Assembly: GCA_900696495.1 (NCBI GenBank) | Contig: CAADGI010000014.1 | Location: 310,001-374,000 of the forward strand | DNA: 64,000 bases | Direction of reading: 5' to 3' | Source: an uncultured Alphaproteobacteria bacterium | Lineage (GTDB): Bacteria; Pseudomonadota; Alphaproteobacteria; Micavibrionales; Micavibrionaceae | Shown: piece after piece, positions 18,241 to 64,000 of the stretch | How positions within the stretch are numbered: position 1 is the stretch's first letter | Layout: each line of letters opens with the position of its first letter | The notes under the pieces: generated by a model | Databases searched by the model: none | Seen by the model: only the letters and a program-made list of their open reading frames with translations | Told to the model about the DNA's origin: nothing | Program-made: the position numbers and the translations under genes

Positions 18241-18332
18241 CGTCATTGCGACCCCGGCGAAAGCCGGGGGAAGCAATCCAGAATTTATTAAGACTGGATC
18301 GCCACGCCGATTTTCAAGCGGCTCGCGATGGC
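18241..18332. repeat. Dispersed palindromic repeat, GTCATTGCGAG type (copy 2)
   Basis: It starts CGTCATTGCGACC, carries a CCGGCGAAAGCCGG hairpin, has CAATCCAGA and TCTGGATC-like inner pairs, and ends GCTCGCGATGG. It separates the MotE-like gene from the TPR gene. Confidence 0.75.
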
Positions 18333-59711: not shown

Positions 59712-59807
59712 CGTCATCGCGAGGAGGCCTTCAGGCCGACGTGGCAATCCATCTTAAAGAATAGAAAAATTCTGGATTGCTTCGTCACTGCGTTCCTCGC
59801 AATGACG
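59712..59807. repeat. Dispersed palindromic repeat, GTCATTGCGAG type (copy 3)
   Basis: Left arm CGTCATCGCGAGGAGGCC with GGCAATCCA, right arm TGGATTGC with TCCTCGCAATGACG. It fills the space between convergent comF and the monooxygenase gene. Confidence 0.85.
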
Positions 59808-62404: not shown

Positions 62405-63058
62405 ATGATCGAAAACTTCTATGAACAAAAGCCCAAATCCGGCGGCGACCCGAAGCAGGTCATCATTCTGCTGCATGGCGTCGGCTCCAATGGCCGCGAC
62501 CTGATCTCCCTTGCGCCCTATTTCGCCGGGGCGGTTCCCGACGCGGTTTTTATCTCGCCCGACGCTCCATATCCTTACGACCAGGCCCCGCCAGGCTATG
62601 ACGCGTGGCAATGGTTCCCGCTTTATACCCGCACTTTCGAGGGCCGCCTCGAGGGGCTGAAGGCCGCCGTGCCGCTGGTTCATGCGTTCATGGACGAACA
62701 GCTGAAACGTTTCAACCTCACCGCCGATAAACTTGCGCTCGTCGGGTTCTCGCAGGGCACGATGACCAGCCTTTATGCCGGTCCGCGCTATAAACAGAAA
62801 ATCGCCGGCATCCTCGGCTATTCCGGCGCACTGATCTGGGAGGAGGAGGTGCCCAAGGACATCAACCGCGTTCCCGTCCACCTCATCCACGGCGACGCCG
62901 ACGAGGTCGTGCCGGTTTTCGCTTGGCACCATGCCAAGGAAAAACTCGAAAAATCCGGCTTCACCGTTTCCGGCGAAATCGAACACGGTCTAGCCCACAG
63001 CATCAACGAAAACGGCATCGAGAACGGCGCAAGATTCCTGCAATCGACCTTATCCTGA
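62405..63058 (+). CDS. Alpha/beta-hydrolase carboxylesterase (phospholipase/carboxylesterase family)
   Basis: The 217-residue product has VIILLHGVGSNGRDLISLAPYF, nucleophile Ser116 in LVGFSQGTM, Asp in IHGDADEVVP and His in EHGLAHSI, a full triad. It is similar to YpfH/acyl-protein thioesterase-like esterases. TTG at 62399 is an alternative start two codons upstream. Substrate unknown. Confidence 0.9.
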   Translation: MIENFYEQKPKSGGDPKQVIILLHGVGSNGRDLISLAPYFAGAVPDAVFISPDAPYPYDQAPPGYDAWQWFPLYTRTFEGRLEGLKAAVPLVHAFMDEQLKRFNLTADKLALVGFSQGTMTSLYAGPRYKQKIAGILGYSGALIWEEEVPKDINRVPVHLIHGDADEVVPVFAWHHAKEKLEKSGFTVSGEIEHGLAHSINENGIENGARFLQSTLS

Positions 63059-63064
63059 TCCTGA

Positions 63065-63302
63065 TGTCATCCCGGCGGCTTGTCCGCCGAAGCCTTGGCG
63101 AAGGCGGAAAGCCGGGATCCATTTCAGAAACCATGAATGGACACGAATGGCGGTCGCGATTGTTCGTGTTTATTATTTTTTTAACCACAGCGGGTACAGG
63201 CGAAATCACAGGCGCATTCAGCGCAGGACGCGCTGTGATTTCGCCTGTACCCGCTGTGGTTCAATACTGTTTTTTTAATTAAACCAGGCCGCCGGGATGA
63301 CG
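63065..63302. repeat. Dispersed palindromic repeat split by a nested inverted repeat (copy 11)
   Basis: Outer ends are ATGTCATCCCGGCGG and GCCGCCGGGATGACG. Between them is a segment of about 150 bp containing an ACACGAA/TTCGTGT pair and a perfect 29-bp inverted repeat. The outer palindrome is therefore probably interrupted by a second element. Confidence 0.75.
63183..63261. repeat. Perfect 29-bp inverted repeat
   Basis: The left arm 63183-63211 (AACCACAGCGGGTACAGGCG...) and right arm 63233-63261 are exact reverse complements around a 21-nt loop. Followed by TTTTTTT on the plus strand after a gap of about 9 bases. Could be a MITE-like element or a very stable terminator. Confidence 0.85.
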
Positions 63303-63578
63303 GGGGTGGGGGTGTCGCAGTGGTGCAATACCCCCGTCCGAAACCGGTTGACCGGTTATATCAAACCCCCTAGATTGTAGGCGGATCGGTTCTGCCCGGT
63401 CCGGGGCTTTAACAACCCCTTTTACACGACGGCTGGCATCAGCCGTGATTGGTGCTTTTTCCGTGAAAAGATTGAGCGCCAGAGATGTCGCCTTCTCGGC
63501 CTTCGGCCGGGGGGCGGCGATGTATGTACAGGGCTTCGGTCTAAAGATCGTCGCGCCGTCTTCGTGTAAGCGGTTGTT
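63303..63578 (+). other. Non-coding segment before the last gene
   Basis: About 275 bp with no convincing gene. It contains ACGGCT-GGCATC-AGCCGT-like and GGCCTTCGGCC hairpins and ACCGGTTGACCGGT. With the nested hairpins at 63579-63629 this could be a structured leader or a small RNA gene; I cannot assign it to a known family. Confidence 0.3.
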
Positions 63579-63629
63579 AACCTCCGGCCACCAAGAGCGA
63601 TCCTTGGTGGTTTTTTTTACCCGGAGGTT
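63579..63629 (+). promoter_or_regulatory. Nested hairpins over a ribosome-binding site
   Basis: AACCTCCGG (63579-63587) is exactly complementary to CCGGAGGTT (63621-63629), which contains the GGAGG of the next gene. Inside lies the terminator-like stem CCACCAAG / CTTGGTGG followed by T8. Either the terminator ends an upstream RNA, or the outer stem hides the ribosome site. Confidence 0.6.
63588..63618 (+). terminator. Rho-independent terminator
   Basis: CCACCAAG (63588-63595), 7-nt loop, CTTGGTGG (63603-63610), then eight T. A textbook terminator, 15 bp before the last start codon. Confidence 0.8.
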
Positions 63630-63632
63630 TGC

Positions 63633-64000
63633 ATGGAAATTTTTACATCCCCGTCATCGCGAGGAGCGCCGGCGACGCGGCGATCCGATTTTTTCTGGAT
63701 TGCTTCGCTGCTCCTCGCAATGACGGTCATGATAATAAAACCCGCCCGCGCCGAGATCAGCATGAGCACCTGGGGGCAGGGCGGCATCCGCATCGGGGAA
63801 ACGGCGATTCCTTGCACCGCTGCCGCGGAAGGGGCGCTGCGCTATGACACCGTGGGCAAGGGATTCGAATTCTGCAACGGCACGGCATGGCTTCCCGTCC
63901 TGCTGGCCATGTCGCAGCCATGGATCGTCGTCACGCCGACCGTCAAGACGCTGGACGTCGCCGGCCCCGGCACGCCCGCCTATGGCGCGTGGGAAACCTT
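63633..64000 (+). CDS. Secreted protein with CNGT-W motif, 3'-truncated by the window
   Basis: The frame starts at ATG 63633 behind GGAGG and stays open to the window end (122 codons). Residues 1-40 form a signal peptide, with hydrophobic core FFWIASLLLAMTVMIIKPA and likely cleavage after ARA. Residues 7-31 are encoded by a palindromic repeat of the GTCATTGCGAG type. The mature part has GALRYDTVGKGFEFCNGTAWLP, the same motif as in the LamG protein at 26271. Probably extracellular. The complete domain set is not visible. Confidence 0.75.
   Translation, partial: MEIFTSPSSRGAPATRRSDFFWIASLLLAMTVMIIKPARAEISMSTWGQGGIRIGETAIPCTAAAEGALRYDTVGKGFEFCNGTAWLPVLLAMSQPWIVVTPTVKTLDVAGPGTPAYGAWET
63652..63725. 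repeat. Dispersed palindromic repeat, GTCATTGCGAG type (copy 4), inside a gene
   Basis: Left arm CGTCATCGCGAGGAGCGCC, right arm TGGATTGCTTCGCTGCTCC then TCGCAATGACG. It is entirely within the coding region of the last gene and encodes part of its signal peptide. Confidence 0.85.

Follow-up and report, generated by a model that had tools for sequence, protein, structure and literature searches.

Signal peptides turn over fast, and the sources of new ones are seldom visible. A stretch of 64,000 nucleotides from an uncultured alphaproteobacterium of the family Micavibrionaceae (assembly GCA_900696495.1, contig CAADGI010000014.1, positions 310,001 to 374,000 of the forward strand; hereafter the window) raises the question of whether such a source can be selfish DNA. 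Near the end of the window, which belongs to contig C14 of a 2.04 Mb genome in 25 contigs, a palindromic repeat of the GTCATTGCGAG type lies directly behind the start codon of a gene of the exported type. The repeat carries the CGTC tags of a known class of repetitive extragenic palindromes (REPs), and its in-frame translation supplies most of the core of the predicted signal of the protein. Here the donor sequence is recognizable, dispersed and recurrent, so that the birth of signal peptides from selfish DNA becomes testable. The features concerned are as follows.

63623..63627, + strand: Shine-Dalgarno (SD) sequence GGAGG, read from the sequence; the same CGGGAGGTTTGC-(G)TG layout stands ahead of an unrelated gene at locus L082
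63633..64000, + strand, running 751 bases beyond the window end: coding sequence of 372 amino acids at full length, from the open reading frame (ORF) on the longer contig (L011:1633-2751)
63652..63726, + strand: palindromic repeat of GTCATTGCGAG type in two inverted units with CGTC tags, translated in frame as residues 7-31, from genome BLAST and sequence
63690..63737, + strand: hydrophobic region F20-I35 (FFWIASLLLAMTVMII), with F20-T31 encoded by the repeat and V32-I35 beyond it
63738..63752, + strand: c-region KPARA with a predicted signal peptidase I site A40/E41, from the sequence by eye

Start codon and reading frame

The first-pass annotation of the window had placed GGAGG and ATG 63633 just outside the repeat and read the repeat as residues 7-31, and this anatomy holds: both elements are immediately 5′ of the repeat, which starts in codon 7 and extends one base into codon 32 (translation PSSRGAPATRRSDFFWIASLLLAMT). 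On the longer contig the ORF opens MEIFTSPSSRGAPATRRSDFFWIASLLLAMTVMIIKPARAEIS and carries an Lcl_C domain at residues 282-369, together with a weak, sub-threshold match to choice-of-anchor D at residues 121-190. A search of the genome contigs with the protein found no relative.

ATG 63633 is a credible start codon, given its good SD and the same SD and start position after the same leader elsewhere. Between the window and L082, the alignment of a structured leader RNA upstream (described below) extends through the SD and start codon (CCGGAGGTTTGC-ATG and CGGGAGGTTTGC-GTG, respectively) despite the unrelated genes, so that the start position belongs to the leader. Translation might instead begin downstream, for example at ATG 63720 in the repeat tag, leaving the repeat untranslated and the long ORF an over-annotation. 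Di Nocera et al. (2013) suspected over-annotation for many N-terminal REPs, and open repeat frames without an upstream SD-ATG usually precede genes that seem to begin past the repeat: ArgH (L413/L421), PlsY (L348) and YbeY (L065), all named by eye. Those cases lack an SD-ATG in the frame of the repeat, whereas the window gene has a strong one. ATG 63720, moreover, has no SD, and its product (MTVMIIKPARAE) has no core and would be signal-less, although relatives have signals. A start there, which would have overturned the earlier annotation, is very improbable. As a separate observation, PlsY seems to start at or just past the ATG of the repeat tag (LAM-T-M), and the tag may donate start codons too.

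The repeat and its open frames

The repeat is a genuine dispersed palindrome that fits the CGTC-tagged REP class. BLAST (E<=1e-3) finds it at 41 places in its own genome, and 97 canonical far arms occur in 30 of the 104 family genomes. Copies consist of two inverted units, CGTC-AT[TC]GC...GC[AG]AT-CC[AG], with a short loop between. In the window copy each unit has CGTC at one end (63652 on the + strand, the other on the - strand); unit 2 (CGTC-ATTGC...GCAAT-CCA) has the CCA tail and AT stem start of the REP superfamily, and unit 1 (CGTC-ATCGC...GCGAT-CCG) is one base away from the CCA tail. REPs are expected to have a stem of 8-9 bp and a loop of 4-5 bases; the window units taken singly are weak or fold otherwise, and the dimer forms one long hairpin (-45.7 kcal/mol).

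The 29 full copies in the genome offer 174 frames, of which 88 are open; nine frames, all from copies other than that of the window gene, equal or exceed the frame used there in hydrophobicity over 12 residues. Hydrophobic open frames are thus common in the repeat, so that no special tuning is required of the window copy. In one frame of the repeat, the distal tag CTCGCAATGAC reads L-A-M-T after hydrophobic residues, and the near arm is polar and Arg-rich. The far arm of the window copy, GGATTGCTTCGCTGCTCCTCGCAATGA, is unique among the 104 genomes, the 97 canonical arms giving a stop in that frame. It was considered as a tuning mutation and rejected as unproven: long CTCCTC-type arms are natural, and arm lengths vary widely.

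The predicted signal peptide

Most of the hydrophobic core (FFWIASLLLAM) had been attributed to the repeat, and hydrophobicity bears this out. The 11-residue maximum of the N-terminus is 2.61 with the repeat-coded residues and 1.56 without them, against 2.3-3.8 for ten ordinary LptA/Lcl signal peptides and 0.7-1.5 for four cytoplasmic-type N-termini. Removing the repeat-coded residues leaves MEIFTSVMIIKPARAEIS, which has no core. The native VMII-KPARA/E follows the repeat-encoded core, and by rule the layout is that of a Sec signal cut by signal peptidase I, with basic R10, R16 and R17, the 2.61 core and a predicted ARA/E site. A twin-arginine (Tat) signal was rejected: T-R-R-S-D-F-F has D where S/T-R-R-x-F-L-K needs F. 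The best homologue (genome G026; 40% identity over residues 24-371) begins MIRLDNSKLLSMAGATMLLLIALSPVSAPKAQ, an ordinary signal peptide without the repeat; the same N-terminus without repeat similarity, which would have told against the earlier annotation, is not what this homologue has.

The arrangement can be explained as follows. A CGTC-tagged repeat would have come to sit immediately after the start codon of a gene for an exported protein, and it is translated. In the LAMT frame its near arm gives a polar, Arg-rich stretch, and its far arm, reading FLDCFxxLAMT or FWIASLxLAMT, is hydrophobic, so that the two arms follow each other as n-region and h-region do in a Sec signal. From the host gene come the start codon, the final hydrophobic residues and the cleavage motif. 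Because the signal is predicted to be cut off, signal peptidase would remove the whole insert and leave the mature Lcl_C protein unaffected. A cleavable leader may thus be a permissive landing site, which the LAMT frame would make a working one. Passive insertion into such a leader suffices, because one repeat frame naturally reads basic-then-hydrophobic; the leader would then have lost its native core.

Recurrence in the order

A scan of 142 genomes of the order for an SD, an ATG and the near end of the repeat gave 29 hits, a number that does not exceed a rough chance estimate, so that only frame, ORF length and product carry weight. Long ORFs (>=100 codons) through the repeat all encode a signal peptide or lipoprotein signal. 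Besides the window gene they include LptA (G001, G002), a family-5 solute-binding protein (G067), a secreted protein directly after hisS (G062, G065, G088) and lipoproteins with LTGC or LTAC lipoboxes (G001/G002, G118). An AGGA version of the pattern gave mostly short-frame chance matches and no new long case, with one 65-codon signal-like frame (L307). A second sampling by far arm, independent of any start codon, added FliP in G058 (PF00813, 2.7e-82), a YkuD lipoprotein (LSAC), more post-hisS proteins and L350. The window's own genome has at least three repeat-encoded signals: the window gene, LptA (L147) and an EnvC-like M23 protein (L064), whose ATGA start overlaps the stop codon of the upstream gene. 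The repeat tag is read in the LAMT frame in every supported case. Counted on sampled copies, predicted signals encoded by the repeat thus front at least ten gene families within the order, those of LptA and FliP among them. Signals were found with one-base-longer far arms in 7 of 47 sampled copies and with canonical arms in 1 of 75 (p = 0.005; 0.06 after gene-family collapse), an enrichment that is only suggestive. One practical consequence concerns annotation: trimming starts past N-terminal repeats by default would delete the LptA and FliP signals in this order.

LptA is the most informative case. The repeat stands at its start in all three species of the genus (3/3) and at none of 27 other LptA loci, where readable starts encode ordinary short signals. 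Without the repeat residues, the LptA of the genus has no comparable hydrophobic core. Over the 44-codon signal region, G001 and G002 differ by 4 synonymous and 0 nonsynonymous substitutions (2 and 0 within the repeat); few in number, these agree with selection acting at the peptide level. The LptA of G000 has a second palindrome inside its n-region and keeps FFWIASLALAMTAISAHAQ.

In four genera the signal of the post-hisS secreted protein (L118, L121, L127, L323, L332, L391) derives from the repeat, the near arms being in differing frames; either an old shared insertion or a hotspot could account for this. L118 and L121 share an identical core, WIASLTLAMT, behind a diverged n-region; neither they nor L127 have a comparable core once the repeat residues are removed.

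An alternative is that the palindrome landed in a permissive, discarded leader and is carried there neutrally, without being needed for the signal. Half of the repeat frames are open and many are naturally hydrophobic, repeats also occur in prepilin leaders before GFTLxE in other phyla, and the lipoproteins L130/L142 keep a native core past the repeat (2.01 without and 2.15 with it). Since some lipoproteins keep their core, tolerance and replacement both occur. For the window gene, LptA, L118/L121 and L127, however, nothing comparable is left when the repeat is subtracted, and neutrality does not readily account for the amino-acid conservation of the LptA signal or of the L118/L121 core beside a diverging n-region. 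As a general explanation it is unlikely.

Several points weigh against a functional, repeat-built signal in the window protein. The n-region is long (~19 residues) and the predicted signal runs to 40 residues; K36 breaks the junction between core and cleavage site; and the strong fold of the repeat RNA (-45.7 kcal/mol), some 20 nt past the start codon, could hinder translation. In addition, the window gene is unique in the genus and has no near orthologue by which to gauge selection, the evidence for purifying selection being that of LptA. The first-pass view of a selfish palindrome converted into a secretion signal is supported, with qualifications: the palindrome is dispersed, in frame and the source of most of the core, and the conversion recurs, but "converted" may overstate adaptation at this gene. 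That a translated CGTC-tagged repeat forms the predicted signal here is still the probable reading. For the broader proposal, that GTCATTGCGAG-type palindromes are mobile, ready-made signal-peptide cassettes that have repeatedly replaced native signals in the order, including that of LptA where selection would have kept the replacement, the balance tips only slightly in favor.

Some leads lie outside the order. A scan of named genomes gave, among the matches listed, further N-terminal cases in other phyla. In Heliobacteriaceae and Elusimicrobia (L226, L246, L248), repeat-like insertions sit in type IV prepilin leaders right before GFTLxE, and lipoprotein leaders opening with GTCATTGCGAG repeat sequence (L187, L204, L247, L217, L198) occur in Fibrobacter, Chloroflexi and one other bacterium.

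Relation to known in-gene palindromes

A signal peptide formed by a repeat has a precedent. In Yersinia YPO1552, the RU-2 (YPAL) palindromic repeat is part of the predicted signal peptide (Delihas, 2007, PMC2759123; review PMC2229807), and relatives in other genera have unrelated signal sequences (Delihas, 2007, PMC2759123). RU-1f fusions in a hydrophobic frame were described as well (Delihas, 2007, PMC2759123; review PMC2229807). Literature searches for signal peptides of repeat origin yielded only the Delihas papers. RU-2 is a different repeat family with one main signal-peptide case; here, by contrast, at least ten gene families in one order are involved, LptA and FliP among them, with species-level conservation and a single shared frame. 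Judged by the papers searched, recurrence within a single order, a common frame and replacement of the LptA signal look new, and it is through recurrence that an old, thinly documented idea becomes testable.

The CGTC-tagged REPs surveyed by Di Nocera et al. (2013, PMC3733652) include the Rickettsia palindromic elements (RPEs) and a CGTC-1 family in Micavibrio aeruginosavorus. The present repeat resembles them in its CGTC tag, inverted dimers, in-gene copies and alphaproteobacterial spread. That survey suspected many N-terminal copies of being mis-annotated and proposed no signal-peptide role (PMC3733652), whereas copies with an upstream SD-ATG and a long LAMT-frame ORF are here predicted to be signal peptides. 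The Rickettsia elements, as the review relates them, are selfish palindromes in frame within proteins, mainly as inserts in otherwise conserved ones (Ogata, 2000, via PMC2229807). The window repeat is likewise a palindrome read in frame, but unlike those inserts it lies within a leader predicted to be cleavable, whose core it supplies.

The locus and its leader RNA

Three further features of the window are listed here.

63047..64000, + strand, on to 64761 in contig coordinates: segment missing from both congeners (repeats, leader and gene), flanked by an esterase gene and an HNH gene
63384..63618, + strand: structured leader RNA, conserved and sRNA-Xcc1-like, with an intrinsic-terminator hairpin at its end
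71-150, 18242-18332 and 59712-59807: further copies of the same palindrome

The esterase and HNH genes adjoin each other in the two congeners, where the 1.7-kb segment with the leader and window gene is missing. The leader (also at loci L076-L105, L043 and L038) occurs in 39 of the 104 family genomes, mostly directly upstream of differing, unrelated accessory genes, and looks like the RNA part of a mobile cassette with a cargo gene. A consensus fold of 27 leaders has two-sided compensatory changes at 16 of 27 pairs. Scores against sRNA-Xcc1 (RF02221) are 28 bits here, 44.8 in L080 and 43 in L082, all under the 53-bit Rfam gathering cut-off.

The window gene could also be a decaying or unexpressed cassette whose N-terminus has no function; its insertion is species-specific and absent from both congeners, and the SD is closely preceded by an intrinsic terminator. 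Yet the 372-residue frame is intact, the Lcl_C domain is recognizable and the arrangement of leader, SD and start is conserved, and decay seems quite doubtful. At 63579-63629, AACCTCCGG...CCGGAGGTT surrounds the terminator hairpin; it would pair with the SD and might attenuate the gene. A second type of palindrome (AACCACAGCG...CGCTGTGGTT) lies upstream of the leader at 63184-63262, and a further copy of it is nested in the repeat-derived LptA signal of the same genome (L147 2440-2510).
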